From Minisyncoccota bacterium (GTDB lineage: Bacteria; Patescibacteriota; Minisyncoccia; JAHIHE01; JAGLIN01): a stretch of 51,527 nt of DNA. Every line of letters begins with the position of its first letter. Position 1 is the first letter of the stretch. The notes under the pieces are model-generated. The model was not told the origin of the DNA, searched no databases, and was given only the letters and a program-made list of their open reading frames with translations. A program made the translations under genes and the position numbers. Of the stretch, positions 11,364 through 51,281 are shown piece after piece. The stretch is from assembly GCA_028690055.1 (NCBI GenBank), contig JAQVBZ010000009.1, positions 1 to 51,527 of the forward strand, in the 5' to 3' direction.

Positions 11364-11371
11364 ATATTTAT

Positions 11372-12514: not shown

Positions 12515-12518
12515 GGTT

Positions 12519-29395: not shown

Positions 29396-29518
29396 AATAC
29401 CGCTCTATAGATAACCCGGTATATCCCTCCTTTTTAACCAACCGCTTTATTATAACAACATCAATCAATAATGCAAATTATCATAATCTAAATTGCTGAA
29501 TTGTTCTATTCTGTAAGC

Positions 29519-29665
29519 TGTCATCCCGGAATTTCTCATAAGAGAGATATCCAGGATTCCGATGCTAAGCCTATAATGTGTAGCCGTACGATTGAAACAT
29601 GGCATTTGTCTTGCATAGTCACGGGATTCCGGATATTTCGTAGTAACGAAATTCCGGAATGACAC
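29519..29665. repeat. Palindromic MITE-like element family D
   Basis: tgtcatcccggaattt ... aaattccggaatgaca terminal inverted repeats. Confidence 0.75.
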
Positions 29666-29686
29666 AGGGAAGACGGGATTTCTGTT

Positions 29687-30991: not shown

Positions 30992-31060
30992 ATTGTATTT
31001 CCATAAATTAGTACTAACACGTAATCGCGAAGGATGAGAGTATAAGGAACGTATGAACAC

Positions 31061-31102
31061 TGTCATTCTGAGGTACCCCGAAGAATCCCGTTAAATCCCG
31101 CA
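31061..31102. repeat. Interspersed repeat family C
   Basis: tgtcattctgaggtaccccgaagaatcccgttaaatcccgca. Confidence 0.85.
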
Positions 31103-31111
31103 TCAAATGGA

Positions 31112-31273
31112 TTTGATTCCCCTCTAGAGAGGGGTGACACCAACATAAGCGAAGCGTTGTTGTTGTGCGGGGTGTGTAGGGAACGATATATTTTTGCATA
31201 ACGCTCTTTACACACCCCTCGCAACTTTACAGCTAAAGCCATAACGGCTCTTCCCCTCTCGAGAGGGTAATCT
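31112..31273. repeat. MITE-like inverted-repeat element family B
   Basis: gattcccctctagagaggggtgacacc ... ggggtgtgt ... acacacccctcgcaac ... cccctctcgagagggtaatc. Confidence 0.85.
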
Positions 31274-31300
31274 AATACCTACAAGAAGACGAACAGAGTC

Positions 31301-31342
31301 ACGTCCCCTCGCCCATTGGGAGAGGGTCAGGGTGAGGGGGAG
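31301..31342. repeat. Interspersed repeat family A
   Basis: acgtcccctcgcccattgggagagggtcagggtgagggggag. Confidence 0.8.
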
Positions 31343-31392
31343 CAATAGTGTATTTAAACCTTAATGAAACCGGCCGGAGACACGGTTCCGGC

Positions 31393-31959
31393 TCAATATT
31401 TCCTTATAACCGCTGTGACCACGGCCGCAATTTTCAATTCCTCCTCGGGGTAGATGTTCTGATATTTCTTGTTGGCCGGTTCCAGATATATCTTGCCGGC
31501 CTTTTTTCTTAAATATTTTATAGTCCATTTATTGTCCACCTCGGCGATAACAATATCACCTTCGGCAGGAGTCGCGCTACGATCTACCAGCACCATATCC
31601 CCCGGCATAATTCCGGCATCCTTCATTGAATCGCCGCTGATCCTGAGCATATAGGTCGCTTCCTTATTCTTAATCAGGAATTCATCCATACTCATAGTAT
31701 CCGATAGTTCTTCTTCAGCCGGCGAAGGAAACCCCGCCTCCACTTGCCCCAGCACTCGGATCTCGCCATATAGATTGCGTGGAATCAGTTTACCCTTCCC
31801 GTCTTTGCTTAAAAATTTCTCATCCTCTAATTTTTTCACCAATTTAAAAACCGCATTCTTGGATTTGAAACCCAACAGAGTCATCATTTCCGCATAACTG
31901 GGCATCCGCCGTTGTTTCTGATAAAACTTGATAATCCGTCTCTTGTGTTTTTCCGTCAT
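31393..31959 (-). CDS. lexA: LexA-like SOS repressor (S24 peptidase)
   Basis: 188 aa; winged-HTH 'RMPSYAEMMTLLGFKSKNAVFKLVKKLED', cleavage site 'VEAGFPSP', catalytic Ser 'ISGDSMKDAGI' and Lys 'KWTIKYLRK'. Confidence 0.9.
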   Translation of the reverse strand: MTEKHKRRIIKFYQKQRRMPSYAEMMTLLGFKSKNAVFKLVKKLEDEKFLSKDGKGKLIPRNLYGEIRVLGQVEAGFPSPAEEELSDTMSMDEFLIKNKEATYMLRISGDSMKDAGIMPGDMVLVDRSATPAEGDIVIAEVDNKWTIKYLRKKAGKIYLEPANKKYQNIYPEEELKIAAVVTAVIRKY

Positions 31960-31985
31960 ATGTTTTTGGGTTACATCTTCTCTAC

Positions 31986-32014
31986 ATTATAGTAAACAAT
32001 CGTTCACCTGTAAA
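31986..32014 (-). promoter_or_regulatory. lexA promoter (TTTACA-N17-TATAAT) with palindromic candidate LexA operator GTGAACGATTGTTTAC in the spacer
   Basis: Minus strand: TTTACA-ggtgaacgattgtttac-TATAAT; operator is GTGAAC-N4-GTTTAC (31992-32007), 27 bp upstream of the lexA start. Confidence 0.8.
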
Positions 32015-32201
32015 TGACCGAGGGAATCGAGCCATAAAATCACACAGAACTTCATCACTTTTATGATCGGTCTTTCCGGAATTCTGTTATTGCGTACCTC
32101 ATTTAGGAATGACAAAATATATTTAGTTATAAGAACGGAAGAATTCATTTCTTTGAAAATATCAGAGAATCGTCAGACTTGCACAAGGCTGATATTTTAC
32201 A

Positions 32202-34820
32202 CTACCCATCAATGCCAATGATTGTCTCAAGATTCAAAAGGTCATACTTCCCATCTTTATCTCCGGCTATAGAAAATCCGAAAGAATCGTCGTTCTTAAT
32301 AGACCAATTCCAAACGAGATATCCCCTATAGCCGTTTTTTGAAATGAACCCTGATATATCCTCTATCACATCCGATGGCTCCCGGCCGAAGGGATATAGA
32401 TATTTTGGAATTCCGAATTCACCGACGATAATGGGCTTATCCATCTTGTCAGCATAATCCGCTTGCAGGCTCAGATACTGATTGACTTGTTCGAGATCGC
32501 TATAAAGAATCTCATTTTTCTCATTATAGAGATAGAGATGAACGGAACAGATGTCGATACTTGGGATACCGCAGATGTTCGCTGTTTGTTTCTCCGTAAG
32601 CGATATCGCCTGCTCAGTCCCGGACAATATGAGATGATTTGGGTCAATTTGCCTGATATAGTCCGCCATTTCTGTTGTCCAGTCGACCAGGATATCTTCC
32701 TTGCCTTCGGTTATCCGGGGCTCATTGATGATTTCCCAGCCGAGTATCGATGCCTCTTCGGCATATATATTATGAGTGATACTATTCTCTCGCGAGATTA
32801 CATGGTTGATATAGTTTTTGAATATTTTTTTCGTTTCCTCGTCCGAATAAAATAAATTATCACCGTTTTTAGTTTTTCCTGTCCACACTAAATACTGTTT
32901 TTTGCCTCCAAGGTCCTGCCAATGATTCACGAGCGAAGGTATGAGCTTGATATCATGTTTGCTTGCGGTGAATATTATCAAGTCTGCTTTTTTAAATCTT
33001 TCTTCATTCATAATCCCCGCCTCCGGCTGGAAACCTTCGTCGTATCCGTCTCCGAACATCCAGAAGCGAACGGTATTGACCCCGGCCTCGTGAAGATTTT
33101 GGAAAGTATCATCGATTTCCTCGTCCGTCTTGTATGCCAAGTCATAAGAATTGACTCCCCTGATCACGATCGGTTTTTTGCCTGTCATCATAGTGTTGCC
33201 ATCTCTCGAAACGAATAATTCATTCTTATCTCGAAGCTTATAGATACGCGCGTGTTTACCTTCGTATGATAACTTGTAAAAGCTCAGGAATCTATTATTT
33301 TGCTTGTTTACCAAAGTCGTATACACAGGCTCGCCCACATCACCGTTAGCCATCACTATCCATCTGGCATATTCTTCCGGCTGTGCTATTGCCTCCGACC
33401 ACTCCCTGCTCACTCCTTCGTGAATGAATTGTTCCAAGTGAAAGCCACTCTTGAACAGGACCGGATTGAAAAATGATGTGGAAACTATGACCTTTTCATC
33501 CGATGAGACCTTATTCTCTAATTCCAGAGCTATGTCGTAATGAGCAAACGAGCTTGATCCGACCGTGCCGTCGACTAAAGTGATTATTCCGCTGCGCTGC
33601 ATAGTCATCGTCTGAAATATGGTTATAAGGATTACCGCGATGTAGATTAAGGTCTTCTTGAGATTTGAGATGATGCCGATAAAAAATGCGGCAAAGGGAA
33701 GGGCGAAAATCCCGTATCGCGTATTAAACCACTGGTTGGAAAACTCACCTGAGGGATTCCATCCCAGTTCAGGAAGATTGATGATTGAGAACCCCAGATA
33801 CAAGGCCAATATATTGAATATTATCGGAGAAACGAGCAAAACCAAAACCAAAGCTTTATTGCTGAGGTCGATTCTCAGCTTCTTTTGAAAAAAGAAACTC
33901 ACCAGTCCCGCAAAAGCTAGGACTATGACATATTTTCCTACGACCGCAAGCATATCATACCAATAAGCCAAGGAAGCTATATTCAGATTATTTTTTGTTA
34001 TAAGTCCGGCATTGCTTTCGATGGTCGTTTGCTGCGACTTTGCCGAGTAGGGTCCGATGGCAAAATACAACGGGTCTCCGAAGATGAGCAGATTCCAAAT
34101 GAACCATAATCCCACACCAAAAATGATCGGAAATACAAAGACAGTAAGTTTTCCTACGGTATCTTTCAGCCCCCCCTTGCGATACAGGATTTCATAGTAT
34201 GCAATAAGCAAAAATTCTACTCCGACAACAAACCAGCCGTCATACCTGGCAAGCACCTGCAAAAACCCCAACGCCCCCAGTATGAATAGATACTTGGGGT
34301 CGCCCTTAATAATAAATTTGATAAAGTACAAAACCGACAAAACAAAGAACATGAGATAAAGTGGCTCCGTGAGAGGGGTCGTCTGCAGATATAGCATATT
34401 AAGATTCACTGCAAATATAACTCCCCCCAAGAGCGATGCCGTCTTATCCTTGGTGACGATTTCGATACTTTTGTAGATGCCCCAAACAGAAATCACATAA
34501 GCAATCATCGAAAAGATGCTTCCCGCAAACCCACTGTGCCACGCCCAATCATTCCAAACCAAAGAGAGAGACAACACATGATTCAAAGGAAGCCAAACAC
34601 TCCCCAACTGCGAAATGCCCGGCTCAATATTATCGATGACCAGGCGCGAAATATTCAGATGCGACATCGCATCACCGTATGCCAATGAATAACCCTTGTC
34701 AGACGACCACGCATAAGACAATGCAGAAAGAACGGCCGTAAAAAGCATCAGCAATTTTAGCGACTTTGCGCTCAGGTATATTTTAATTTTTTCAAATATG
34801 GAAGCTTCGAGCATGTACAT
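32202..34820 (-). CDS. Membrane GT-C glycosyltransferase-like protein fused to a GH5-like glycoside hydrolase domain
   Basis: 872 aa; N-term polytopic 'DAMSHLNISRLVIDNIEPGISQLGSVWLPL', 'TPLTEPLYLMF', 'LARYDGWF'; C-term 'PIVIRGVNSYDLAY', 'AGVNTVRFWMFGDG', 'LGWEIINEPR', 'KPIIVGEFGIPK'. Confidence 0.85.
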   Translation of the reverse strand: MYMLEASIFEKIKIYLSAKSLKLLMLFTAVLSALSYAWSSDKGYSLAYGDAMSHLNISRLVIDNIEPGISQLGSVWLPLNHVLSLSLVWNDWAWHSGFAGSIFSMIAYVISVWGIYKSIEIVTKDKTASLLGGVIFAVNLNMLYLQTTPLTEPLYLMFFVLSVLYFIKFIIKGDPKYLFILGALGFLQVLARYDGWFVVGVEFLLIAYYEILYRKGGLKDTVGKLTVFVFPIIFGVGLWFIWNLLIFGDPLYFAIGPYSAKSQQTTIESNAGLITKNNLNIASLAYWYDMLAVVGKYVIVLAFAGLVSFFFQKKLRIDLSNKALVLVLLVSPIIFNILALYLGFSIINLPELGWNPSGEFSNQWFNTRYGIFALPFAAFFIGIISNLKKTLIYIAVILITIFQTMTMQRSGIITLVDGTVGSSSFAHYDIALELENKVSSDEKVIVSTSFFNPVLFKSGFHLEQFIHEGVSREWSEAIAQPEEYARWIVMANGDVGEPVYTTLVNKQNNRFLSFYKLSYEGKHARIYKLRDKNELFVSRDGNTMMTGKKPIVIRGVNSYDLAYKTDEEIDDTFQNLHEAGVNTVRFWMFGDGYDEGFQPEAGIMNEERFKKADLIIFTASKHDIKLIPSLVNHWQDLGGKKQYLVWTGKTKNGDNLFYSDEETKKIFKNYINHVISRENSITHNIYAEEASILGWEIINEPRITEGKEDILVDWTTEMADYIRQIDPNHLILSGTEQAISLTEKQTANICGIPSIDICSVHLYLYNEKNEILYSDLEQVNQYLSLQADYADKMDKPIIVGEFGIPKYLYPFGREPSDVIEDISGFISKNGYRGYLVWNWSIKNDDSFGFSIAGDKDGKYDLLNLETIIGIDG

Positions 34821-34826
34821 TTGAGA

Positions 34827-36995
34827 TTATTTGATTATCGGCAGATGCAATCCGTGCACTGTTTTTTCCCAATAGTGCGGCTTAAAGATTATCTGATACA
34901 GAGCCATCCAGGCGGCGATGCTCATCATCAGCCAATAAATCGGTACGAAAAAAACATACACAACGATGCCCCACTGCTCTCTTTTGTAGCAGCCGATCAT
35001 ATAATAATATAAATAAAGAAAATTACCGAGCACCAAGCAGATAACCGCCAAATAGAAAACTATCGGCGGAAACAGCGAATCGACAGTCGATCCGATTATT
35101 GAACGGAAAGAAAAATAAGTGACGGTGGTCGACCACATAAAAGGATTTATAAAAAGGGATGAGACTTTCCCCCCTACCACCAGCTGAAAAGTGATTATGT
35201 TCGGGTGTTTCCAGTCAGAAATAAACTCTTTCGGATTCCTCATATGGACTAAGTATGTTTGCATATAGCCTTTGATCCAACGCGAGCGCTGCTTCATCCA
35301 ATTCATAAGATTGCTATTCGCCTCTTCCATCGTAGTGGAATCCAAAACGGCCGTATGATAACCCATCTTGCATAAACGCATTCCCAAATCGCAGTCTTCC
35401 GTCACATTAAAAGGATCCCATCCTTTGAGCAGGTGCAAACTATCGGCTTTGAAATGATTAGAAGTGCCTCCCAAGGGAATCGGCGCACCTATCGATTGCA
35501 AGCCGGGCAATATCAGATCAAACCAGAGGGAATATTCGGCTGTAAAAACACGAGTCAATATATTTTGACAAGGATTATAAAAATTCAGCTGAGCCTGCAT
35601 ACAAACGATGTCCTTGTTTTCTTCTTTCTGAAAAGCTGAGAACGCTTTTTTCAGCTGCTTCGGATCTGGGATGTCTTCCGCATCATAAATCACCACATAT
35701 TCCCCCTTGGCATGCGCCAAGCCATAATTACAGGCTTTCGGTTTTGTTTTGGGCGCGCCATGAGGGACTACGATTATATGAAAACAATCCGGCAACTTCA
35801 TTTCCTCCGCCACCCTTATCGTCTCCCTATCGTCATCTTCAAACAAAAGCTGGACCTCGAGCTTGTTTTTGGGCCAATCCATTCCAGAGATTGCCTCAAT
35901 GAATTGAGGAAGAATTTTGCTCTCCTTGTAAAGAGGGCAAAAAATCGTATAAACAGGCAGGTCTTCATCTTTGATGGCCTTCAATTCTTTTTCCGAAATC
36001 CGAATCTCCGGTGTTTTTTGAAAATTTCTGCCGATCAAAAATAAGTTAAACAATAGATCCAAGAAGTAGACGACGGTCAATAATACGACTATCAGGATTA
36101 TCGTAGTTCGCCAATCCAGGATAAAACCGGCTATAATCGTCAATAACAATACCGCTAAGACTATTTTTTGGTGAAGAACGATAGTCTGTAATGCGCTGTG
36201 GCGGTGGCTTATGTCGGTATGAGTGATCAGTTTTTCCCCTTTATAGAATACGCCGTTTCCCATCATTTTATCCTGAGTTTCGTCGCTATACAAAACGGGA
36301 GGCAGTACGGTTAATTTCAGTTTGAACGCTTGCAGCCCAATTTCGAAAACAGATCTAAGGAAATTCAATTTAACATTCCCGCCTTGCCTCTCGAAAAATT
36401 CTATATCGAAACTTCCGATGGTGTAACCGAGATTTCGCGCTTTGTGCAAAAATTGCAGATCAAATGTCCAGGGAGTGGAACTTATCTCTATATACGCGAG
36501 AACTTCCTTTTTAAAGACTTTCAGTCCGGACTGCACGTCACAATCCAAACCGAAGATTACCTTACCGAAAACATAACGGAACATCTTGCTGGCAAATTTC
36601 CTGCTAACGCTTGAATCGTTCCTGATATTCCTATTGCTCACGACGATATCAAATTTTTTCAGCTCCCTACACATCGGCAATATCTCCTCCGGTGGATATT
36701 GCAAATCGGCATCAATCATACAAATGACATCGTACGCTGCGTTTTTAAAACCGATAAGAAGGGACTCGGCCTTTCCTTTTTTGATACGTTTATCTTTTAC
36801 AATCGTTCTTACGGGGAGATAATTACAGAATTTATTTATTTTTCCGACTGTATCATCAGTAGAATTATCGTCAACAAAAATCAGCTCATAAGATATTCTG
36901 GATTTCGCAAAAGAACATTGCACTCTCTTAATGAGTTTTTCTACGTTAGCATCTTCATTGTACGTAGGAATAATTATTGAGACACCTCCCATCAT
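34827..36995 (-). CDS. Bifunctional GT2-GT2 protein: DPM1-like domain plus processive BcsA-like membrane GT2
   Basis: 722 aa; domain 1 'VSIIIPTYNEDANVEKLIKRV', 'MIDADLQYPP'; domain 2 'YTIFCPLYKESKILPQFIEAI', 'IYDAEDIPDP', 'VTEDCDLGMRLCKMGY', 'WMKQRSRWIKGYMQT', C-terminal TMs. Confidence 0.9.
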   Translation of the reverse strand: MMGGVSIIIPTYNEDANVEKLIKRVQCSFAKSRISYELIFVDDNSTDDTVGKINKFCNYLPVRTIVKDKRIKKGKAESLLIGFKNAAYDVICMIDADLQYPPEEILPMCRELKKFDIVVSNRNIRNDSSVSRKFASKMFRYVFGKVIFGLDCDVQSGLKVFKKEVLAYIEISSTPWTFDLQFLHKARNLGYTIGSFDIEFFERQGGNVKLNFLRSVFEIGLQAFKLKLTVLPPVLYSDETQDKMMGNGVFYKGEKLITHTDISHRHSALQTIVLHQKIVLAVLLLTIIAGFILDWRTTIILIVVLLTVVYFLDLLFNLFLIGRNFQKTPEIRISEKELKAIKDEDLPVYTIFCPLYKESKILPQFIEAISGMDWPKNKLEVQLLFEDDDRETIRVAEEMKLPDCFHIIVVPHGAPKTKPKACNYGLAHAKGEYVVIYDAEDIPDPKQLKKAFSAFQKEENKDIVCMQAQLNFYNPCQNILTRVFTAEYSLWFDLILPGLQSIGAPIPLGGTSNHFKADSLHLLKGWDPFNVTEDCDLGMRLCKMGYHTAVLDSTTMEEANSNLMNWMKQRSRWIKGYMQTYLVHMRNPKEFISDWKHPNIITFQLVVGGKVSSLFINPFMWSTTVTYFSFRSIIGSTVDSLFPPIVFYLAVICLVLGNFLYLYYYMIGCYKREQWGIVVYVFFVPIYWLMMSIAAWMALYQIIFKPHYWEKTVHGLHLPIIK

Positions 36996-37547: not shown

Positions 37548-40500
37548 TTACCTCAAGACCTCTCCGCTCTGATACCAACTGAATTCCGTATCATTCACGA
37601 CGATGATATAATCCCAATTAAGTTTGTATTTTATAAAGACTTCCGGATTGGGAATGCGTCTTTTAATGTTGTCTTCAGTGAGATAGATGTCCGGAGAATA
37701 TCCGGTTTTAATGAGATGTGAAGTGGGGTAAGATTGCATCTCAAGCTTGGAGATTATCTGTACGTCCTCTGTCTTATCTCCGTATGAATTGAAAATTTCC
37801 GTGGTCGGTATCAATTTCTTGATACCATTTTCTGTATAATATATACCGTCAATTCTCGATTCCTTAAGGAGATTGGCTTGTCGATATTTGTTCACAGTCT
37901 CTTGTGTCACATCAACCACCTCATCCCACTTGAAACCGTAGTCCAGAAATATCTCAGGATTGGGAATGTGACGTCTTACGCCATTTACTACCAAATAAAC
38001 TTTGTAATCCCCTATCGTCCTTATGAGATTATCCTCGTAATCGGGAATCGACTCCAATTGTGGACGAGTCAGCTCTTGGATGTCTGTCCATTTATAGCCC
38101 AGCTGCTCGAATACTTCAGGCGTGCATATCCATTTTTTCTTATATTCCAAAGTGATATAGACTTTAAAAGAGTCGGCAGTCTTTATGAGCGTGCCATTGG
38201 GAAAAAGAGGGACTGAGGAAACTGGGTCGCTACTAACCAGACTTAGTTCGACTATGTTCGAGATTCCGCCCGAGGAAGATTTGAATTTGATATATAACTT
38301 GTCTTGCTCGTCCGCTTTGATATAAGTAGGAGAAGCGCTATAAGTTTCCCATTCTGTATCGGCAAAATCCGCAGTCGAAGACAAAGACATTTGCGAAGCG
38401 TTCAGGACCGAGAAAGAAAGAGTTGCCAGATTATCCACAATCGAGGTCACTTCATATTTTTCTATAGTAGGAATAGTAATAATGCTACTGCTCCCTCCTC
38501 CTCCGCCAGAACTGTAACTGATAGTGTAAGCAGCTGAGGCAACGGCACTGTTGCTAAATCCTGTTTGTGTTGCCAGTGTCTTTACCGTTGTCGTAGATGA
38601 AATGGATAGCGCTGAAGAATAAAGGGTTGATGTAATAGTAGGAGTCGAGCCATCCAAAGTGTAATGGATAGCAGCACCCGTGTCCGTAGTACTTAGGGTA
38701 ACGCTTTGCGCCGAGGAAAAAGTTCCGGTTGCAAGTGAGAAAGTCGGAGGCTTAAGCGCTGCTCTAAAACTCACTACCCAGCCGCCCGAAACGCCGCCTC
38801 CCGTAGTAACGAGCGAAGCGGTAGTGTTTGTCAGTACGGAAGAAGTAATTCGTTCTTCTGCCGGTCGCGCTACGCTGAAACCACAATAATCATTGGGGAG
38901 AAGCGTATAGCCAGGACCTGCGGTACAACCCGATGCTCCCGTATGCCAGGCGGCTAATATCAATTCGTTAGGAATCGCAGTGGTAAATGTCGGCGATGTT
39001 GCCCCCGCTCCGGAAGTGATTACATCCACAGGGGAAAGCGTATCGATGTTGGCATATTCAAGAACGCGAATCGTGCTAAAAGTACCGTTAAATGTTGCGG
39101 TTACGGTATTTAGCGAAGTAGCTCTTGCAAATGCGTAAAACCATTGACCGGAGATGTCTCCACCCACTAGAGTCGAGGATCCGATAGAAGTATATGTATT
39201 TCCCTGCGTATCGGTTATCCCGAATGCTGCCAGATTCTCATGGACTGCCAAGTGTACCGCGATCAAATTGCCTTCTGTATGAGTGACGGTAGGCGCGCTT
39301 AAGCTGGTAGCCGCAGCGTTGTGAGAAGGAGTTACTGCTTGCGTAATCGGACCGTGGATGCCAGATTCCTCTGTCGTAAAGGTAGCAGTAGCGGTAACAT
39401 CGGCACTAAGTGTCACGGTGCAAGTAGATTGTGTACCACTGCAACCATTTGACCAGCCTACAAAAGTAGATCCGGTATCCGGTGTAGCCGTAAGAATAAC
39501 TTGGGTTCCTGCGGTTAGTGTTGCTTCCGTGCCTGTACAGCTTGTGCCACAAGTATTAAAAGTTGTGGCAGGTGCTACAGTTGCGATTGTAACCGTGCCT
39601 GTACCTCCATTGCCTGCTTTACCTAGTGTCAAAGTATTGCCATCCGTCAAAACAGTCCATCCGCGAGAGATAAGATTAGCCGCATGAGATTGTCCTGTGG
39701 CAGAAGAAGGTGCGTTACTAGTCAAATCCAAATAACCTCCTCCCGTATTTTGAGTATCAAAGTCCAATAATATATCATCTACCGCAGCCTCGGCAAAAAG
39801 ATTGTTATGAGCGTCGAGGTGGTATAGACCGATAGAGCTGGAAACATCCAAGCTGGTGAGCCGATTGTTATATGCGTCTACATCTTCAAGTCCCAGATTA
39901 TTGCTGATGTCCAAACTGGTTAGGACATTATCGAAAATATCTATGTAGCCCCTCGTACCGGCTATTGGAAAATTTCCTGAGAAATTAGCGGCTGAATATT
40001 GGTTGGTTTGCGCCCAGACTGATTCTATATTAGTTGAAATCGGATGCAGTGTCCCGGTTTGAGCGTCATTTCTAATCCAAAGTTCTTCTAACGATGGAAA
40101 CTTGGATAAATCGGCAATCGGTGCCGTTAAAGCCATGCTATGAGCGCAGAAGTGCCATAAATAAGGCTCTCCGTTCGTTGGCCATGTAATCGAAGTATAC
40201 TCATTAGCCGTACCACGAAAATCAGCAATATTCGGACTTTCCGAAAGGTCCAGTGTGTCCAGTCCACTACTTTCAATATTCAATCGTGACAGGACAGGAG
40301 TATTAGTGAAGTTAACGGAATTTAAGGAAGGACAATACGAACAATCTAATGTAGTTAAGGCCGTAAAATTGCTGAAGTCTATTGCGACGAGCGGATTATT
40401 CCAAGAAACCCATGCCCATAGGTAGGGCGCCGCATTGCTAAGACCGCTAACCGCAGTCACATTTTGTTGCGCTAAATCAGGAATGACGGTCGTGCCTTCC

Positions 40501-42611
40501 TCGTTATGATTATATCCGATATTGATCGAAGCTATGGCACTCCACGGCGTTACCACTAATGTATTAGTTCTGCTGCTCGCATCCGCGAAAGTTACACTTG
40601 GAGACAGAGAATCAGAAGTCGAGCCGTCGCCGAATTCCCAGTGGACATTCGGATGTCCTATGACTGTAATAATAGGAGCGAAAGACGCGCCGCTAGTGGT
40701 AAAAGTAATTTTGGCACTGGCGTCTATGACATAATCCGCATTCGTTATGACGCTATCGGTCATACCGCTCATAGTCGCAACCGCCTTAAGAGTCTGTGAG
40801 CTGGCAACGGTGATAGCAGCAGCATAAGGATAAGTTGCCCCCGTGCAATTCCCCGCTCCGTCGGTAGTGGGATCGGATCCATCGGTCGTGTAGCAAATAG
40901 TGGCACCCGGTACAGTGCTAGTTAAGGTCACATCCTGAGAAGCGGCGTATGTGCCAGCGATAGGAGAGAAAACTGGAGTAACCGCCCCTCTAAAACTCAC
41001 TACCCAATTGTTCCATGCAGCACCACCTACGTGCCCCAAAGAAACCGTCGCATTAGATTGGAGAGAAGAAACAATCCTCTGTTGTACTGGCCGCCCGATA
41101 TTGGTGCTACAATAGTCATTTGCAGTCAGGGTATAATCGGTATCTGCTGTACAGGAAGTAAGGCTCGTTCCATTGTCGAACTGTGCGTGCCATCCGGACA
41201 GAATAAGCTCGTTGGATGTGGCCGTCGAGAAAGCCGGCGAAGTCGCTCCTGCTCCTGCGACATACACATCTAGGGGAGAACTCGTATCAATGCCGGAATA
41301 TTCCAGGGCGCGGATATTATAATTGATTACACTAGTATTACTGAAAGTCGCAGTCACGATATTGCTTCCGGTAGTTCCGGCAAAAGTATAAAACCATTGA
41401 CCGTAAAGACTACTGGTAGGCGCGACCGCCGTTCCGATAGGCGTATAAGTATTTGTCTGTGTGTCGCTGACAGTAATCGTGCCCGGATTGAGATTAGTCA
41501 CCACGAATACTGCTATAAGATTTCCCGTCGTGTGAGGTACGGAAGGAGTAGACACAGACGAACCCGGGCCACTTTGTTGTGAAACACTAACATTGGTTAT
41601 CGGACCTCGGATACCGCTAATCACATATGCGGCACTTGCCATATAAGAGTCGGTACTACCGCTTTTAGTTGCGACCGCCTTGATATTTTTGGAACTGGAA
41701 ACACTGATTGCGCCGGAATAAGTCAGAGCGTCTCCTAAACAAATACCCGCTCCGTCGGTAGTAGGATCGGATCCATCGGTCGTGTAACAAATAGTGGCAC
41801 CAGCAGTCGTACTGCCAAGAGTCACAGACTGAGAGGTTGCGTATGTACCGGCGGGAACGGAAAAAGTGGGAGTAGCCACATCTCTGGCGGCAATCTTGAA
41901 ACTCACAGTCCAGCCTCCATTGATGCTTCCACCCGTATTACCGATTGATGACAGAGTATCGGTTTGGATAGATGAAACAATTCTCTGCTCTACCGGCCTT
42001 GCCACAACAGATGAACCGCAACGGTCATTTGCAAGAAGGGTATAGCCATTTCCCGCTACACATGAGCTTACAAAGCTATTTGCTTCCCAACCGGCGAGTA
42101 TAAGCTCGTCGGGAGAAGTTGTTGTAAAAAGTGGCGAAACAGATTCAAATCCCGAAACGGAAATATCTACCGGAGAAGCTCCTGCAATATTATCATATTC
42201 CAATACGCGAATCGTTCTTCCTGTTGCCGCTTGAGAAAAACTGGCAGTAACAATATTCTCTCCCGTAGCATTTGCAAAAGCATAGAACCATTGACCCGTA
42301 GCCCCTCCTACCGAAAGAGCGTACGCGGTGCTGGCTGCAGTATAAGTATTGGCTCGTGTATCGGTAACGGTAATAGTCCCGGGGTCTATGGCAACCACGA
42401 ATACCGCAATCAAATTTCCCGATGTATGCGTTGCTGTCGGAGCAGCTATACTAGTGGCAGCCGCCGACTGGTAGACGGTATCGGAATATGAAACCAAATT
42501 AGGCGTAGCCATAGCCGATCTTGTGCTGAACAAATATACGATTGCAAAAACCAAACAAACCAATACCACAAAAACAGTCTTGAGATTAGTCTTACGCATA
42601 AAAGTAATCAT
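37548..42611 (-). CDS. Giant modular secreted surface protein (three repeated beta modules, chitobiase/beta-hexosaminidase-C-like domains, LRR-like region, bacterial beta-repeat, four C-terminal ~52-aa repeats)
   Basis: 1687 aa; N-terminal signal; 'ATICYTTDGSDPTTDGAG' (CHB_HEX_C-like) twice plus a variant; 'LTTLDCSYCPSLNSVNFTNTP..LDLSES' LRR-like; 'TLTAGTQVILTATPDTGSTFVGWSNGCSGTQSTCTVTLSADVTATATF'. Confidence 0.85.
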   Translation of the reverse strand: MITFMRKTNLKTVFVVLVCLVFAIVYLFSTRSAMATPNLVSYSDTVYQSAAATSIAAPTATHTSGNLIAVFVVAIDPGTITVTDTRANTYTAASTAYALSVGGATGQWFYAFANATGENIVTASFSQAATGRTIRVLEYDNIAGASPVDISVSGFESVSPLFTTTSPDELILAGWEANSFVSSCVAGNGYTLLANDRCGSSVVARPVEQRIVSSIQTDTLSSIGNTGGSINGGWTVSFKIAARDVATPTFSVPAGTYATSQSVTLGSTTAGATICYTTDGSDPTTDGAGICLGDALTYSGAISVSSSKNIKAVATKSGSTDSYMASAAYVISGIRGPITNVSVSQQSGPGSSVSTPSVPHTTGNLIAVFVVTNLNPGTITVSDTQTNTYTPIGTAVAPTSSLYGQWFYTFAGTTGSNIVTATFSNTSVINYNIRALEYSGIDTSSPLDVYVAGAGATSPAFSTATSNELILSGWHAQFDNGTSLTSCTADTDYTLTANDYCSTNIGRPVQQRIVSSLQSNATVSLGHVGGAAWNNWVVSFRGAVTPVFSPIAGTYAASQDVTLTSTVPGATICYTTDGSDPTTDGAGNCTGATYPYAAAITVASSQTLKAVATMSGMTDSVITNADYVIDASAKITFTTSGASFAPIITVIGHPNVHWEFGDGSTSDSLSPSVTFADASSRTNTLVVTPWSAIASINIGYNHNEEGTTVIPDLAQQNVTAVSGLSNAAPYLWAWVSWNNPLVAIDFSNFTALTTLDCSYCPSLNSVNFTNTPVLSRLNIESSGLDTLDLSESPNIADFRGTANEYTSITWPTNGEPYLWHFCAHSMALTAPIADLSKFPSLEELWIRNDAQTGTLHPISTNIESVWAQTNQYSAANFSGNFPIAGTRGYIDIFDNVLTSLDISNNLGLEDVDAYNNRLTSLDVSSSIGLYHLDAHNNLFAEAAVDDILLDFDTQNTGGGYLDLTSNAPSSATGQSHAANLISRGWTVLTDGNTLTLGKAGNGGTGTVTIATVAPATTFNTCGTSCTGTEATLTAGTQVILTATPDTGSTFVGWSNGCSGTQSTCTVTLSADVTATATFTTEESGIHGPITQAVTPSHNAAATSLSAPTVTHTEGNLIAVHLAVHENLAAFGITDTQGNTYTSIGSSTLVGGDISGQWFYAFARATSLNTVTATFNGTFSTIRVLEYANIDTLSPVDVITSGAGATSPTFTTAIPNELILAAWHTGASGCTAGPGYTLLPNDYCGFSVARPAEERITSSVLTNTTASLVTTGGGVSGGWVVSFRAALKPPTFSLATGTFSSAQSVTLSTTDTGAAIHYTLDGSTPTITSTLYSSALSISSTTTVKTLATQTGFSNSAVASAAYTISYSSGGGGGSSSIITIPTIEKYEVTSIVDNLATLSFSVLNASQMSLSSTADFADTEWETYSASPTYIKADEQDKLYIKFKSSSGGISNIVELSLVSSDPVSSVPLFPNGTLIKTADSFKVYITLEYKKKWICTPEVFEQLGYKWTDIQELTRPQLESIPDYEDNLIRTIGDYKVYLVVNGVRRHIPNPEIFLDYGFKWDEVVDVTQETVNKYRQANLLKESRIDGIYYTENGIKKLIPTTEIFNSYGDKTEDVQIISKLEMQSYPTSHLIKTGYSPDIYLTEDNIKRRIPNPEVFIKYKLNWDYIIVVNDTEFSWYQSGEVLR

Positions 42612-43711: not shown

Positions 43712-43991
43712 AATAAGATTTAATAGTCTAATAATTTATCTTATATTAATATAAAAGATAGTTTTTGAAAAATCTCCGACAAAAATCCAAAAGATACAAA
43801 AAAACAACGTCTCATGACATTGCCAACGCTGGGCCACATAGAAGCCATCGCAAACTATTTCCAAGGCATTGATCCAGGAAGTGCCTATGTTCCGAAGTGT
43901 GATAAGGATAGGTCTCTGCCAAAATTATATATCCAGCTTATTATAGATTAAGGTAAATAAACTTTCGATAATCTCAATTCGCAGTGGGCGT

Positions 43992-44022
43992 CGTGTATCG
44001 CCACGATATCTTCTCTATCACA
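43992..44022 (-). pseudogene. RHS core relic ('DREDIVAIH', cf. 'DGEDIVAIYD')
   Basis: cgtgtatcgccacgatatcttctctatcaca closely matches the intact RHS segment near 47000-47030 (tatatcgccacgatatcttctccgtcata). Confidence 0.6.
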
Positions 44023-44037
44023 GAACACTAGGATGAT

Positions 44038-44358
44038 TTAAGCCATCCACCCGAGTTCTTTTAAGGCATTAGTTAGCTTATCCATACGGTAGCTCCAATA
44101 CCAGAAAAACATACTTTTGTCATATCTTTTATTGTTATGATATATCCGTATTCCATAACCAATAATTGGAAAATATTTTTTAACCTCAATCCGAATAATG
44201 TCCCCTTTGGAGAGCTTGTATTCTTTCTTCATCAGTTCGTCTCGCAGAACTAAAGAGGCCTGACTGACTTCCAGTATTCCGTTTGGCCATGTACTACCAA
44301 AAATACCGATACTTAAGCCCCCTCGAAATTTATAATTTGATTTTGTTTCTGTTGTCAT
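44038..44358 (-). CDS. Small hypothetical protein downstream of displaced RHS tip (candidate immunity protein)
   Basis: 106 aa ending LKELGWMA; a homologous 3' remnant lies after the other RHS tip. Confidence 0.55.
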   Translation of the reverse strand: MTTETKSNYKFRGGLSIGIFGSTWPNGILEVSQASLVLRDELMKKEYKLSKGDIIRIEVKKYFPIIGYGIRIYHNNKRYDKSMFFWYWSYRMDKLTNALKELGWMA

Positions 44359-44514: not shown

Positions 44515-45237
44515 TTATTTCGACATAGCATTTTTTGTCGGTATAACCAAAGTCTTTATACCCGTTAGCATATCTTGCAAGTCTTGTTTAATATTACGAT
44601 CCATAACTACAACGGTGCTATTAACTCCACCGACTACGTATGTAGAAGGAATTGGTAGTCCAACACCAACGCTAATATCAGTTCCACTGTAGCCACCTTT
44701 GGAAAAGTTGGTGTTTATATCTCCTCCAAATATAAATTTTCCGCCACACCCTCCATAAACATCTATACCTTCAGTATCACTCCATGTCTCTGCATTAGAG
44801 TATCCAAGACCTAAACCGACCGAAGCGTCTATGCCAGAAATACCACCAACATTCGCACCAACCGATAAACCGTATGATCCATCATCGGCGACTCCGAATG
44901 ACCACGTATTTCCACCCGCAACGCCAAGGCCGATATTTGTTGTAAAGCTAATATGAATCTCATACTCACCAGTGGGATCCCCATACCTTACTGGATTATT
45001 CGTCACATACACGTATCTATTCAAAGTTTGAGGAGAAACTGCAAACCCGATAATTGGATCCCTATTCACAAACCTCCCCACACTCGAATCATAATATCTT
45101 GCTCGATAATAGTAAAGTCCAGTCTCCTCGTCATATTCCCGCCCCGTATATGCGTATGGTTGTGACATATCATCCTCCGAGTCACGGAAGTTACCGAAGC
45201 TGTCGTATTCGTGTCTAAAAGGACAGTCCTTACGCAT
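44515..45237 (-). CDS. Displaced (orphan) RHS tip: RHS-associated core end plus glycine-rich C-terminal domain
   Basis: 240 aa; 'YDSFGNFRDSEDDMSQPYAYTGREYDEETGLYYYRARYYDSSVGRFVNRDPIIGF' then 'DPTGEYEIHIS...' Gly-rich tail. Confidence 0.85.
   Translation of the reverse strand: MRKDCPFRHEYDSFGNFRDSEDDMSQPYAYTGREYDEETGLYYYRARYYDSSVGRFVNRDPIIGFAVSPQTLNRYVYVTNNPVRYGDPTGEYEIHISFTTNIGLGVAGGNTWSFGVADDGSYGLSVGANVGGISGIDASVGLGLGYSNAETWSDTEGIDVYGGCGGKFIFGGDINTNFSKGGYSGTDISVGVGLPIPSTYVVGGVNSTVVVMDRNIKQDLQDMLTGIKTLVIPTKNAMSK
45070..45212 (-). repeat. 143-bp perfect direct duplication of RHS core (copy 2; copy 1 at 46668-46810)
   Basis: Base-by-base comparison by eye shows identity over the whole stretch, with divergence on both flanks. 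Confidence 0.92.
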
Positions 45238-45254
45238 TCAAAAGGACTGTCCTT
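45219..45254. repeat. Paired palindromes AAGGACAGTCCTT / AAGGACTGTCCTT at the RHS tip duplication boundary
   Basis: 45219-45231 and 45242-45254 are exact reverse complements. Confidence 0.85.
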
Positions 45255-45322
45255 GCCCCTGCCTGACGAAGCATCATTGTTACGTTTCTTGCCAATCAAA
45301 TGCAAATAATCAATAAAATACT

Positions 45323-45400
45323 TTAAGCCATCCAGCCGAGCTCCTTCAAACTGACATCATCCTTGGAAAACCTTAGTTGCTTTGCGAGATAAAAGTTTAT
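45323..45400 (-). pseudogene. 3' remnant of the LKELGWMA-type small gene
   Basis: Minus-strand reading '..FSKDDVSLKELGWMA*' matches the C-terminus of ORF 44038-44358; no start-to-stop ORF remains. Confidence 0.6.
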
Positions 45401-45672
45401 CTCCTGATTAAACTTCTGGACAATGCCAACAGCGAACCGAGTACTGAAGCTGCCCAATATAACGATATGTAATATATTATTCCTAACGCGGGAGCCGGCA
45501 CATCCAGGACATTTCTCATTACATATAAAAGAATATTTATAGCAACAAAACCGAATATGCTATAACCAAGATATTGATAAACCATTTTCTTTTCTCTGCC
45601 TGATTTTTTTCCTAAGGAATATGCGATTATTAGGGTCAATAATAATATTGCTGCGATGCCGCTGATATCCAT
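45397..45672 (-). CDS. Small membrane protein (three predicted TMs)
   Basis: 91 aa, very hydrophobic; located in RHS tip cassette 1. Confidence 0.55.
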   Translation of the reverse strand: MDISGIAAILLLTLIIAYSLGKKSGREKKMVYQYLGYSIFGFVAINILLYVMRNVLDVPAPALGIIYYISLYWAASVLGSLLALSRSLIRR

Positions 45673-45678
45673 ATATTA

Positions 45679-46053
45679 TTAATTTATATTAAACATCAGA
45701 TTTAGAACCATCTGTATCCCCACAACCAACATACCTGCAAATCCGAAAGAGAAAAAATATAATATATACTTTCGAACCTCTTTCTGAGCCGATCTGACTT
45801 CAACATCATCAATATGCCCGCAAATAGCCTTGAGATGCAAATGTGACAATTTAGGTGCAAGCTTAAATATTGCAAGAGGGTCTTGACCTACCTCTTTCTT
45901 CATGGCTTCTGGGGTAAAAGGGATTGGGGGCGATAGTTTTCTCTGGTATATATTTTGAAATTTGGTATTAGCCTGCATATACTTATATGCCATTACTATA
46001 TCGAGTAAAAAGCACAGCGTGAGAAAGAAAGATACCATCAGTTGAATTATCAT
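45679..46053 (-). CDS. Small membrane protein (two TMs flanking a soluble domain)
   Basis: 124 aa; N- and C-terminal TM helices; located in RHS tip cassette 1. Confidence 0.55.
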   Translation of the reverse strand: MIIQLMVSFFLTLCFLLDIVMAYKYMQANTKFQNIYQRKLSPPIPFTPEAMKKEVGQDPLAIFKLAPKLSHLHLKAICGHIDDVEVRSAQKEVRKYILYFFSFGFAGMLVVGIQMVLNLMFNIN

Positions 46054-46074
46054 AATATTCAGTTAATTATAAAT

Positions 46075-46443
46075 TTATCTGCCCCATATCGGTATCGCCA
46101 CATTATTTTGGATGCCTCCGTGAAATTCTGCCGGCACTGGCACTGCCAATAGCGTCCCGCTGGCACCTTCACCTCCGCCAACCGCTAACGACCATCCTCC
46201 ATTTGTTCCATAAGAGTAATCAGCACTTACACCACCGCCTAATTTAGCAGAACCTCCTACTGTAATATCTAATCCTTCGTAATCTTTTACGGTTTTGGCA
46301 TTTGAAATCATAACCTGCGCATCCCAACCAACAGATCCGCCCGTCGACCCAAGAAATCCGGCATTCGGTACGATTCCAATACCTCCAGGCGTTACCACAA
46401 AGCACCCCCCAGCGCTTACAAGAGCTCCTATCCCATTACACAT
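46075..46443 (-). CDS. RHS tip continuation in shifted frame (glycine-rich C-terminal domain)
   Basis: 122 aa; 'DYEGLDITVGGSAKLGGGVSADYSYGTNGGWSLAVGGGEG..VPVPAEFHGGIQNNVAIP' parallels the orphan tip 'DTEGIDVYGGCGGKFIFGGDINTNFSKGGYSGTDISVGVGLPIPSTYVVGGVNSTVVV'; frame stays open upstream of its ATG to about 46527. Confidence 0.6.
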   Translation of the reverse strand: MCNGIGALVSAGGCFVVTPGGIGIVPNAGFLGSTGGSVGWDAQVMISNAKTVKDYEGLDITVGGSAKLGGGVSADYSYGTNGGWSLAVGGGEGASGTLLAVPVPAEFHGGIQNNVAIPIWGR

Positions 46444-49400
46444 ATTCCCGCGGAAGAAGGGATATTCGTAATAATCATCTGGAGCAGCCCTAACTCTTGC
46501 TGCTGATAACCCAATATACCCACTTCGCTACCTCGTCCCGTCAAAGACACATCTGACTTGCTTAATCCGAACGGATCCACATACCTTGCCGGATTATTCG
46601 TCACATAAGAATATCTATTCTGACTGCTAGGATATTCGATAAATCCCACAATCGGATCCTTGCTAATAAACCTCCCCACACTCGAATCATAATATCTTGC
46701 TCGATAATAGTAAAGTCCAGTCTCCTCGTCATATTCCCGCCCCGTATATGCGTATGGTTGTGACATATCATCCTCCGAGTCACGGAAGTTACCGAAGCTG
46801 TCGTATTCGTAAGACTCTACGATGTTTCCTTTTTTGTCTGTAAGCCGAACTATGCTACCGAGAGCGTCAGCGGTGTAATAGTTTGTTTCTTTTTTCACTT
46901 TGTCCTTTTTGGAATTTTGTTTCTTATAATACGTAACGCTCAAAGGCTCATCGATGCCGGGGCCGTGTACAAAAGTCATTTGCAATTCACCTGATCCGTC
47001 ATATATCGCCACGATATCTTCTCCGTCATAGCGATATTGTTCTGTTTTTTCATCTTGTTTATTGGACCGTCCACGTGAAGATTCCACTGTCAAATACGAC
47101 TTTTTTTGAATCCTTTGCCCGAACGGGTCGTATGTGTACTCGATGCTATTTACCTTTTTGTTGCTTAGTGTTTGTTTCGCTGCAATCAAACGGTTTTCGT
47201 CGTCATATATATATTGCCAATCCTGCTCGCCTGTTTTTGCAATAATATTCCCGTTTTTATCATAAGAGAACACAAAGGAATCAGAAGAATCAGAGTGCCC
47301 ATTGCATTTTCCACAGGAATCGTTCCCTTGATTATGGGCTTGGCAACCGTTCTGCGAATATCCCCTCCAATTTTCTGTGCCTTCGCATCCATCGTCATTC
47401 CACGACCAAGGACAGTTACCACTTCCACCTTGCGACGAAGAATTGTTGGAGCTGTCATTTATGCGAAGCAGTTCGTCTGCTTGGTTATAGAAATAGGATT
47501 CGCTCTGTGGCCCCTCCGCCCTATTTCCTACGCTGTCGTAAGCATAGCTTTCCTCCCACTTTCGCGAAGAATCCCCGGAATTGTTGTGAGAAGAATTGGA
47601 AGAAGAGTTGCCATATCCGTGACCTCCTTGCCATGGATGTGAATCATCTTTTGATTCCAATTGTGTAAAGGCCTGTGTCAGTCTTGCGAGAGGATCGTAT
47701 TCATACATTGTTTGCCACTGGTCCGTTTGTTTCAAAGAACGATTACCGCGGACATCATAGGTATATTTTTCAGAGAAAATATCAGATCCGCGCGACGGGC
47801 TTGCTATCAACGATTGAAGCTGTCCGGCAGTATCGTAAGTGTAACGCGTAGTTATCTCATTCGGCAGAGTAAACTCGGTGCGTCGACCGGCAGCGTCATA
47901 TTTGAAAGTATATGCTTCATTAGCACTGTCGGATATATCAGTCAATTGGCTCAATTCATCATATCCATATCGCAGACTTTCGTTTTCGTTCGTCGTCTGC
48001 GTGCGGCGACCCAGAGTGTCATATGCGTATGTCGTTATACCAAATCTGGAGTCTCCGAAAGATGTAACGAGACCGAGAGCGTTATAGGTGTAAGTATATG
48101 TGACAAACTGATTTTCCGCGCTTGTGAGATTCCCAGCCGCGTCATAGGCGAACTGTGCAGAAGTGCCATCGGAAAAATTCTTGCGCACCAGCCGATTTAG
48201 CGAATCGTATTCATAAGAAACAGTTTTACCCTCTGCTGTTGTCACCGCCGTGACATTTCCCGCACCGTCATATACAAAGGTGCTACTATTACCCAATGAA
48301 TCTGTTGTCTTGGTTACTTGACCGAGTGTGTTATTTTCATATTGCACCATATTGCCTGCTGCATTCGTCGTCGTAACGAGATGATTAAGCATATCATAAC
48401 CATATTGCGTTATTCCGCCCATTGCGTCGGTAACACTGATGAGATTATTATTTGCGTCATATACATATTTAGTTGTGGCAGCTGACGCATCGGAGGCTTC
48501 CACCACGTTCCCCACCTCATCATAGCTGTACACGCTGCTGTTTCCCAGGGCATTGGTGATCTTCGTAAGCCGTTCGAGCGAATCATATTCCATAGATACG
48601 CGATCGCCGTTCGGATCCGTTCTTTCCGTTAAACTGTTCGCTGAATTATATTCTAAATCTACTTCTCCACCGACTGCGTTTGTAGCCTTGACCGGATTGC
48701 CTTGCGCATCGTACGCAAAGGTTATCACTCCGCCTAGTGCATCCGTTGCCGTTGCAAGCTGTCCATATGCGTCATATGCAAAATTTGTTTCCGCTCCGAG
48801 CGGGTTTATGACTATAATCAGATTTCCTTGCGCATCATAAGTGTATGATGTTAAATTCCCAAGTTCATCCGTTGATGAAATGAGATTATTTTCCTCATCG
48901 TAAGAAAAAGTGCGATCGTTACCGAGAGCGTCAGTCACGCAGATCGTGTTGCCGTTTTCATCATATTCATAAGAGGTCGTATTTCCGTTCTGATCCGTCC
49001 ATGCGATAAGCCGATTATTCGCATCGAAAGACGACAGACTTTCATTTCCCGCCGCGTCGATTTGCTTGGTTACGCGAAAAGACTCATCGTAATAATATTT
49101 CCACAACCCGCCTTGCGAGCTGGTATAAGTGGTAACTCTTTCAACTGTATCATATTGGAATGTGCCAGCGTTTCCTCTTCCGTCGGTTTGTTTTACCACT
49201 CTGTTTTCCTCATCATATTCATTTTCAGCCACAGTGTTTCCCTTGGCGTCCGTGATTGATGTTAGGTTATGGTTTTCGCCATACGCATACTGCGTTACTC
49301 CGCCAGCCGGGTTCGTGGCACTGACCAAGTCCCCTGCTGTGTCATATGTATAAGCGTATATTCTTCCCGCCGGGTCCGTAATGGAGATAATGCGCCCCTC

Positions 49401-50357
49401 TGTGTCCGTCTCAAAAATGAGCTTCCTACCGGTCGGCGCGAAAACCTCTGCGAGATTACCATTCTCATCATAAGCAAGAGACAAAGTATTGTTATTCGCG
49501 TCAATTACGGATAATAGCTTTCCTTCTTCGTCGAAATAATATTCCGTTTTATCTACGGCAGTAAGCGAGAAAGTTCCATCGTCGTTTTTCTGCAATTTGC
49601 TCAAAACATCAAGTGTGGGTACATAGTTCCCGTCGGATTGCAGTTCAAAGAAATCCCGCCTGCCGTCTGAATTAACAAACGTCACACCGTTAGAATACTC
49701 GTTTAAACGTATGTTATAAGTATTGGTCCATTTATTACCGAGAGAGCTGTTCTCTTCACTGAGGGAGTTGTACGAACGAACAAATTCGATAGGCAATCCT
49801 CGATCGGAGATACTTATATCACGCATAGAATGCAGATAATTCCCGTAGACGGAATTGATCGGATCGACAATCGCGGGAGTGGTTACACTCGTCCCTGTAA
49901 AATTGTGATAGAAAGTATTGTCTGTATTCGTATATAGGATGAATGGACTCGCTGACGGCAAAAAGATTTGCCCGGGTACGTTTTTGGCTGACGCATTGGA
50001 TGCGGTTGCGTCGACTGAATATGTGAGAGTCCTCTCGCTATTTCGAGGCACCGCTTTGACATTCCAGGAAATTTGTCGTTCCTGTCCGACGGCAAAGTCG
50101 CCGATATATTGCATCGGTGTGCCCGACGCGAGAGACAATCCTTCAGGCAAATTCAAAGTCAGTTCTACGTTTTCCGCCGTGGCTGAGCCGTTGTTAAATA
50201 CCGTTGCCGTAATCGAAAACGGATTCGGCGAATAAGCATTATTGATTACAGATAATGTCGCCGGAGCAGTAATACCGAGAGCAAGTGGCGGCGTAAGATC
50301 CGCATGCAATTGAGCCAAACCATAAAGGGTCGCATATGTGCGATTCTCCCGGAGCAA
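46428..50357 (-). CDS. RHS/YD-repeat protein, main body
   Basis: 1309 aa with more than 20 YD repeats ('YDENGNL..', 'YDAQGN..') and RHS-associated core 'YYYRARYYDSSVGRFISKDPIVGFIEYPSSQNRYSYVTNNPARYVDPFGL'. Confidence 0.93.
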   Translation of the reverse strand: MLRENRTYATLYGLAQLHADLTPPLALGITAPATLSVINNAYSPNPFSITATVFNNGSATAENVELTLNLPEGLSLASGTPMQYIGDFAVGQERQISWNVKAVPRNSERTLTYSVDATASNASAKNVPGQIFLPSASPFILYTNTDNTFYHNFTGTSVTTPAIVDPINSVYGNYLHSMRDISISDRGLPIEFVRSYNSLSEENSSLGNKWTNTYNIRLNEYSNGVTFVNSDGRRDFFELQSDGNYVPTLDVLSKLQKNDDGTFSLTAVDKTEYYFDEEGKLLSVIDANNNTLSLAYDENGNLAEVFAPTGRKLIFETDTEGRIISITDPAGRIYAYTYDTAGDLVSATNPAGGVTQYAYGENHNLTSITDAKGNTVAENEYDEENRVVKQTDGRGNAGTFQYDTVERVTTYTSSQGGLWKYYYDESFRVTKQIDAAGNESLSSFDANNRLIAWTDQNGNTTSYEYDENGNTICVTDALGNDRTFSYDEENNLISSTDELGNLTSYTYDAQGNLIIVINPLGAETNFAYDAYGQLATATDALGGVITFAYDAQGNPVKATNAVGGEVDLEYNSANSLTERTDPNGDRVSMEYDSLERLTKITNALGNSSVYSYDEVGNVVEASDASAATTKYVYDANNNLISVTDAMGGITQYGYDMLNHLVTTTNAAGNMVQYENNTLGQVTKTTDSLGNSSTFVYDGAGNVTAVTTAEGKTVSYEYDSLNRLVRKNFSDGTSAQFAYDAAGNLTSAENQFVTYTYTYNALGLVTSFGDSRFGITTYAYDTLGRRTQTTNENESLRYGYDELSQLTDISDSANEAYTFKYDAAGRRTEFTLPNEITTRYTYDTAGQLQSLIASPSRGSDIFSEKYTYDVRGNRSLKQTDQWQTMYEYDPLARLTQAFTQLESKDDSHPWQGGHGYGNSSSNSSHNNSGDSSRKWEESYAYDSVGNRAEGPQSESYFYNQADELLRINDSSNNSSSQGGSGNCPWSWNDDGCEGTENWRGYSQNGCQAHNQGNDSCGKCNGHSDSSDSFVFSYDKNGNIIAKTGEQDWQYIYDDENRLIAAKQTLSNKKVNSIEYTYDPFGQRIQKKSYLTVESSRGRSNKQDEKTEQYRYDGEDIVAIYDGSGELQMTFVHGPGIDEPLSVTYYKKQNSKKDKVKKETNYYTADALGSIVRLTDKKGNIVESYEYDSFGNFRDSEDDMSQPYAYTGREYDEETGLYYYRARYYDSSVGRFISKDPIVGFIEYPSSQNRYSYVTNNPARYVDPFGLSKSDVSLTGRGSEVGILGYQQQELGLLQMIITNIPSSAGICVMG

Positions 50358-50679
50358 GTGTGGTAGGATTCCAATACACCGCGTATGCGCTGTCAGAAGT
50401 CAGAGAGCGTCCCAGATCAACCGTATAATCATAGTCAGAATCGGTAATCCACCCCCAATGAGCGAACACGAGCCGATCTGGAACAGTGGCTCCGCCGCTT
50501 TTAAGAGTTGCCGCGGCGACATGCTGATTGTCTGTGAGATTGTAATATACAGTGAAATTATCCGGCACTGCTGAACCTAAATATTCTTTTTCAGTAGTAA
50601 TAATGCCATCCCCGGGCACACGAAAAGGAGCTCCATCGTTATCATTCAATTCCGTATCCTGCATAACGCGACTGCCCAC
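50239..50679 (-). pseudogene. Middle fragment of RHS N-terminal region (separated by frameshifts)
   Basis: 'VGSRVMQDTELNDNDGAPFRVPGDG...YNLTDNQHVAAATLKSGG...LAPGES' continues ORF 50681-51250 and runs into the RHS frame near 50345. Confidence 0.75.
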
Positions 50680-50680
50680 T

Positions 50681-51187
50681 TCATGAGCAACCGAGCCAAC
50701 GTTTTTTTACATCATAGGAAATCTTTGCGACATCCTCTTCATTAGTTTGATTGTTCAAGACGATTTGAAGCGTTTGTGTTATCTCGATATCCCCTACTAT
50801 CCACTTACTCTGATTGGTGTGCTGATTTGTATTAGCAGGAGCTTGCACCACCGTTCCTGAATCGCCATATACATTATCCACTCCATCAATTCGAAAGGTT
50901 GTAAAGGATGTTCCTGGCGTCCTCGGCCAGCTATAGGTTAGATCCCAGCTCTCGCTAGTCGAGCCTCCTGTTATAAAGTCCGGGAAAGCACCGATATTAA
51001 AACGTCCATTCGACGCCACCAATATGGCAAGACGCTCATTAAAAGAACTGATTTCAGTTACTTCTTGCTCTGAGTCGCCTTCTGTTCCCGGGGGAAGAGT
51101 CTGACTACTTTGCATAGCCCACGTAAAAGGAACTACAATGATAGCAATTAAAAATGCAATAATAATACCGGATAATCGCTTTTTCAT
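50681..51187 (-). CDS. N-terminal fragment of RHS protein with signal peptide
   Basis: 'MKKRLSGIIIAFLIAIIVVPFTWAMQSSQ...EDVAKISYDVKK'; skipping one A of a 7-A run gives DVKNVGSVAHEVGSRVMQDTELND. Track start 51250, likely start 51187. Confidence 0.75.
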   Translation of the reverse strand: MKKRLSGIIIAFLIAIIVVPFTWAMQSSQTLPPGTEGDSEQEVTEISSFNERLAILVASNGRFNIGAFPDFITGGSTSESWDLTYSWPRTPGTSFTTFRIDGVDNVYGDSGTVVQAPANTNQHTNQSKWIVGDIEITQTLQIVLNNQTNEEDVAKISYDVKKRWLGCS

Positions 51188-51248
51188 GATTCTATAATTG
51201 AATAATTTAGCCCCCTCCTTCTTTTTATATTTAAACGATTTTGGTTTC

Positions 51249-51281
51249 AAAAAAAACGCCCTATCCTAAATAGACAGAGTG
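51249..51281 (-). terminator. Intrinsic terminator/attenuator-like hairpin just upstream of the RHS gene
   Basis: Minus strand CACTCTGTC-TATTTAG-GATAGGGCG-TTTTTTTT (about 9-bp stem with G.U pairs, U8 tract). Confidence 0.55.

Follow-up and report, generated by a model that had tools for sequence, protein, structure and literature searches.

A probable C-terminal displacement at an RHS locus of a Minisyncoccota bacterium and its counterparts in related genomes

The RHS locus described here has very probably undergone C-terminal displacement, in which an incoming unit provided the main gene with its present tip (tip 1) and the old tip (tip 2) was pushed downstream. The locus lies in a window of 51,527 nt, the whole stretch of DNA that was analysed, which is an entire contig (C22) of a 1.46-Mb draft genome in 54 contigs. 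Turnover of RHS tips has been described mainly from Enterobacteriaceae. The kind of locus is already known, and the modest news is its recurrence across the phylum and the presence of a repeat at the breakpoint. The features of the locus, in gene direction, are as follows.

50681-51265, minus strand: first N-terminal frame piece of the main RHS gene, an open frame with a signal-peptide-like start as judged by eye
50239-50706, minus strand: second N-terminal frame piece of the main RHS gene, an open frame overlapping both neighbours
46428-50399, minus strand: long RHS frame of the main gene, with a DUF11-like domain, DUF6531, RHS/YD repeats and the RHS-associated core (Pfam and NCBIfam)
46668-46810, minus strand: 143-bp core tract, main copy (DNA self-comparison)
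46573-46667, minus strand: linker following the main core, sharing 70% identity with its orphan counterpart (DNA self-comparison)
46075-46527, minus strand: tip 1, glycine-rich, an open frame that differs from the frame of the preceding core and is weakly similar to tip 2
45679-46053, minus strand: small membrane-protein ORF, candidate immunity gene by position and sequence
45397-45675, minus strand: second small ORF, putatively a membrane protein (open frame)
45322-45349, minus strand: 28-nt fossil of the 3' end of an ORF like 44038-44358, 24/28 identical to 44037-44064
45219-45254, no strand assigned: one of the dispersed copies of a palindromic repeat, its end 6 nt from the orphan core (fold computation and genome search)
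44515-45237, minus strand: orphan ORF, a core fragment with the glycine-rich tip 2, its start codon within the hairpin repeat (core domain match)
45070-45212, minus strand: 143-bp core tract, orphan copy (DNA self-comparison)
44975-45069, minus strand: linker after the orphan core (DNA self-comparison)
44038-44358, minus strand: small ORF behind tip 2 with LKELGWMA as its last residues, candidate immunity gene by position
43989-44023, minus strand: decayed third core fragment, 86% identical over 35 nt to 46997-47031, with 20 nt identical

The perfect duplication reported in the earlier note is real. Positions 45070-45212 equal 46668-46810 at 143 of 143 positions with zero mismatches in a DNA comparison within the window, and both copies translate in the RHS frame of the minus strand as YDSFGNFRDSEDDM...YYRARYYDSSVGRF. 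Such a match cannot be chance, and a search of the genome's own assembly found the main and orphan copies to be the only two in 1.46 Mb. The note had also held that the sequence diverges immediately on both sides, which is true of the core side, where the border is abrupt and 75 of the 95 adjoining bases differ between the copies. On the tip side, however, similarity continues for another 95 bp at 70% identity (67 bases match and 28 differ), and the whole repeat measures 238 bp at 88% (44975-45212 and 46573-46810). The contrast between tract and tip-side linker is pronounced (0/143 mismatches versus 28/95; Fisher p = 4e-13). The further statement that linkers and tips are different stands in so far as the tips have no match at the DNA level, but the linkers retain this identity and the tips are weakly similar as proteins (30% identity over 92 residues, E 5e-6 by two-sequence BLASTP, a match weakened by their glycine-rich composition).

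The main gene belongs to the RHS family, as both RHS/YD repeats (PF05593, E 1.6e-117 in a Pfam search) and the RHS-associated core domain (TIGR03696 in an NCBIfam search, with E 3.5e-22 in the main gene and E 1.2e-23 in the orphan) were found, and YD repeats occur nowhere else in this genome. As assembled, it does not run in an intact single frame from the N-terminus to the tip. Together with tip 1 it comprises four frame pieces separated by three breaks, each piece out of frame with its neighbour, and the gene itself appears broken. An A7 run lies at the join of the first N-terminal piece with the next. The second N-terminal piece had zero homologues among the 54 relatives searched, and the two N-terminal breaks are therefore deduced from the overlapping frames and the continuity of the gene. 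By inspection of the ORF list, no other gene in the window was conspicuously broken. The breaks, one within the A7 run, could be draft-assembly errors; today the locus looks more like partial decay than a functioning switch.

The orphan unit consists of a core fragment, the second tip and a small downstream ORF. In gene direction, tip 1 is followed by 45679-46053, 45397-45675, the 28-nt fossil, the hairpin, the orphan core, tip 2, 44038-44358 and the decayed core, which lies directly behind 44038-44358. The order of a small-ORF end followed by a core fragment occurs twice in the window, which suggests repeated events. A small gene stands behind each tip, as in polymorphic toxin/immunity pairs, at about 22 nt from tip 1 and more loosely, at 156 nt, from tip 2. 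Tips and small downstream ORFs have no DNA-level match between the units although the core is identical, which indicates that the difference between the tips did not arise after the core copy was made. Neither tip matched Pfam, NCBIfam or PADLOC entries and tip 2 had no match among PDB sequences, so that these searches assign the tips to no known toxin family. The predicted structure of tip 2 is of low confidence (mean pLDDT 35), relatives of the tips within the phylum were borderline matches only, and plasmid matches fell mostly within core and linker. By the general biology of RHS tips, the tips would act as toxins and the small ORFs would encode their immunity proteins. Tip 2 is probably silent.

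Immediately before the orphan lies a strong hairpin. Positions 45219-45254 contain two 13-bp palindromes, AAGGACAGTCCTT and AAGGACTGTCCTT, which are spaced 23 nt apart and form one stem (-22.5 kcal/mol, z -4.1); the hairpin was not listed by the promoter/terminator scan because its loop exceeds the length that the scan permits. It belongs to a dispersed repeat that is mostly confined to the family, and is not a private terminator. Genome-wide there are 26 such palindromes, and the 36-nt element itself recurs, allowing up to 3 mismatches, at 16 matching sites, compared with zero for the reversed control. The copy at C29:19999-20034 is identical across the whole element and another lies at C42:77663-77698. 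Among 30 genomes searched, the palindrome is present in several members of the same family and nearly absent outside it, and some relatives pair the palindromes at about 76-87 nt instead. Strong hairpins were looked for at the orphan borders of the other arrays described below and were not found there, and the repeat is therefore particular to this lineage. It may have caused the breakpoint, may have inserted at the orphan border, or may be there by chance. Its location suggests later reshaping of the 5' border, so the 143 bp need not equal the length of the donor core.

Displacement of rhs C-termini was described in Enterobacteriaceae by Jackson et al. 2009, who proposed that a circle bearing a core fragment, a tip and intervening genes crosses into the resident core, whereby the new tip is attached and the old one is shunted downstream (PMC2935791). 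The core fragments in those loci are identical to the main gene, variable in length, mostly without start codons and partly frameshifted (PMC2935791). The present locus shares these traits of its fragments, as well as the succession of a main gene and same-strand core fragments, each with another tip and with the core identical within the locus. The mark of displacement, a near-identical core fragment with a different tip, downstream and on the same strand, is found here at 143/143 identity. Unlike the loci of Jackson et al. (PMC2935791), this one belongs to another phylum and has a broken main gene, weakly similar tips and a dispersed palindromic repeat beside the orphan core. It also resembles the Salmonella rhs main gene and rhs-CT orphan, for which Koskiniemi et al. 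2014 demonstrated recombination of the orphan tip onto the main gene (PMC3967940), in having an orphan tip and small gene behind the main gene, linked by a common core; there the common stretch is 522 bp at 95% and recombination has been shown, whereas here it is 143 bp at 100% and switching would be feasible in principle only. Orphan cdiA-CT/cdiI modules, for which Poole et al. 2011 proposed recombination, likewise place silent tip fragments and immunity genes behind a main gene with homology stopping at the junction, but those are CdiA/VENN modules with two-partner secretion and not RHS (PMC3150448).

Applied to this locus, the incoming DNA would have been a unit in which a short piece of RHS core preceded tip 1 and its small downstream ORFs. 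A crossover into the resident core would have joined tip 1 to the main gene and shifted tip 2 downstream, where it follows a copy of the core fragment, and the 143-bp tract would represent the length of core that the unit brought. We infer this direction of events, and would likewise assume a circular or exogenous donor. Given the perfect core identity, the event appears recent relative to the divergence of the tips. Recent displacement accounts for this identity without the gene conversion, or the selection for a recombination tract, that had been proposed. Tips that displace one another are as a rule unrelated, and the weak similarity of tips 1 and 2 therefore counts against displacement. 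The donor and its circle were likewise not seen, and none of the relatives searched, all of other genera, has the arrangement that would have preceded displacement.

Of 387 genomes of the class, 18 have the TIGR03696 core domain, as do 30 of 381 genomes of the phylum, which together amount to 44 distinct genomes. Arrays, defined as at least two core matches that share a contig and strand and lie within 5 kb, occur in main-plus-orphan order in 14 of these 44 RHS-bearing genomes of the phylum sample.

Class set, arrays read as DNA: G000, G045, G119, G138, G149, G162, G166, G200
Phylum set, six genomes judged by match positions and frame lengths only: G455, G602, G647, G677, G721, G727

Core copies within arrays are about 72% to 98.8% identical, and the orphan 5' borders fall at differing positions of the core model, which is the variable length seen in displacement loci. 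This range of identity and these variable borders are what homologous, and not site-specific, recombination would be expected to leave; site-specific integration was rejected because of the differing border positions. Nearly every tip in the class-set arrays is followed by a small ORF at about -35 to +20 nt, the exceptions being the window's tip 2 (156 nt) and the final G138 orphan (none). For the small ORFs of the arrays, a simple hydropathy count often predicts one to four membrane spans. In G138 two orphans are 98.8% identical over 172 bp, whereas the main copy differs from the orphans by 15-25%. A 99% repeat in G138:C21 was rejected since it maps upstream of the core. One contig (L123, G119:C10) has three similar RHS tips in tandem, with starts VVVPGTGY or VVVPGTNY, and behind each of them comes an ORF for which membrane spans are predicted. 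At a G045 locus (L008), a similar stretch, FNAWLN(G/S)L, precedes both orphan cores and is possibly a remnant of a shared upstream gene end.

A search of 14 further genomes of the family found the core domain in none of them, and its presence here is therefore patchy; the relatives searched all belong to other genera. The best named relative of the core is from a Patescibacteria genome (L039). Genomes of the phylum measure about 0.5-1.7 Mb at high completeness. Clusters of core-plus-tip ORFs are found outside the phylum too, for example on a Nitrospinota contig (L041). Rows of core-plus-tip ORFs with tips of differing kinds were seen in L041, L044, L053, L093 and L112, all from other phyla. 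A search for RHS together with Patescibacteria, covering mostly literature outside subscription, returned a sole match on another subject, and the recurrence of RHS tip arrays in this phylum may be undescribed.

The earlier note had read the locus as a reservoir of alternative tips for an expressed RHS gene. The anatomy is indeed that which tip displacement leaves, and it recurs in relatives, but the reservoir role sits poorly with a main gene that is frame-broken at three places and an orphan behind a strong hairpin. Active switching, in which the orphan is a maintained reservoir and in some cells recombination over the 143 bp puts tip 2 on the main gene, would find a substrate in the perfect identity and a core frame common to both copies, and it has the Salmonella precedent at 522 bp and 95% (PMC3967940). 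We nevertheless consider it unlikely, as a gene broken upstream would still be broken after the switch, the tract is short, and none of the genomes examined, which are from other genera, has the switched form. Displacement and subsequent switching are not exclusive of each other. It is similarly improbable that an older duplication had its core copies held identical by repeated conversion while the tips diverged. The weak similarity between the tips, the fall in identity at the core/linker border and the close agreement of the G138 orphans set against their main copy all fit such a history, but one recent event explains a hard-ended, whole-core identity equally well, and the small ORFs behind the tips are unrelated to each other. 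As a main explanation, simple tandem duplication was rejected because the tips and small ORFs are unmatched at the DNA level.

The tract could also be a collapsed or misjoined repeat, with the cassette free or located elsewhere. The 54-contig draft, a repeat length near common assembly word sizes and frame breaks that may be errors speak for this, and an integrated cassette should yield the same assembly graph as a free circle plus an empty site. We find an artefact barely credible, however, as linkers, tips and flanks differ between the copies and equivalent arrays occur in many unrelated assemblies. A more speculative and highly doubtful proposal is that RHS tip arrays in these tiny Patescibacteria-like bacteria are a living reservoir, with cassettes leaving and entering as circles, the family-specific palindromic repeat marking or driving the breakpoint, and the assembly representing a mix of integrated and free forms.

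Elsewhere on the contig, 9517-13253 and 28079-36995 form a surface-polysaccharide region with glycosyltransferases and a polysaccharide flippase-like protein, and the same stretches hold a protein with cellulase and mannosyltransferase-like domains and a Y-family DNA polymerase. The gene at 37548-42611 encodes a secreted-looking protein of 1687 aa with chitobiase C-terminal-like, PKD, leucine-rich and divergent InlB B-repeat domains, and contains two internal 62-bp copies at 94% identity.

C-terminal displacement, the explanation we prefer, means that RHS tip turnover leaves traces of the same kind in a phylum whose genomes are very small and in which the burden of spare cassettes should be comparatively greater. 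The candidate toxin/immunity pairs of the window are without any family match, and the arrays in about a third of the sampled RHS-bearing genomes provide a comparative set of such candidate pairs.
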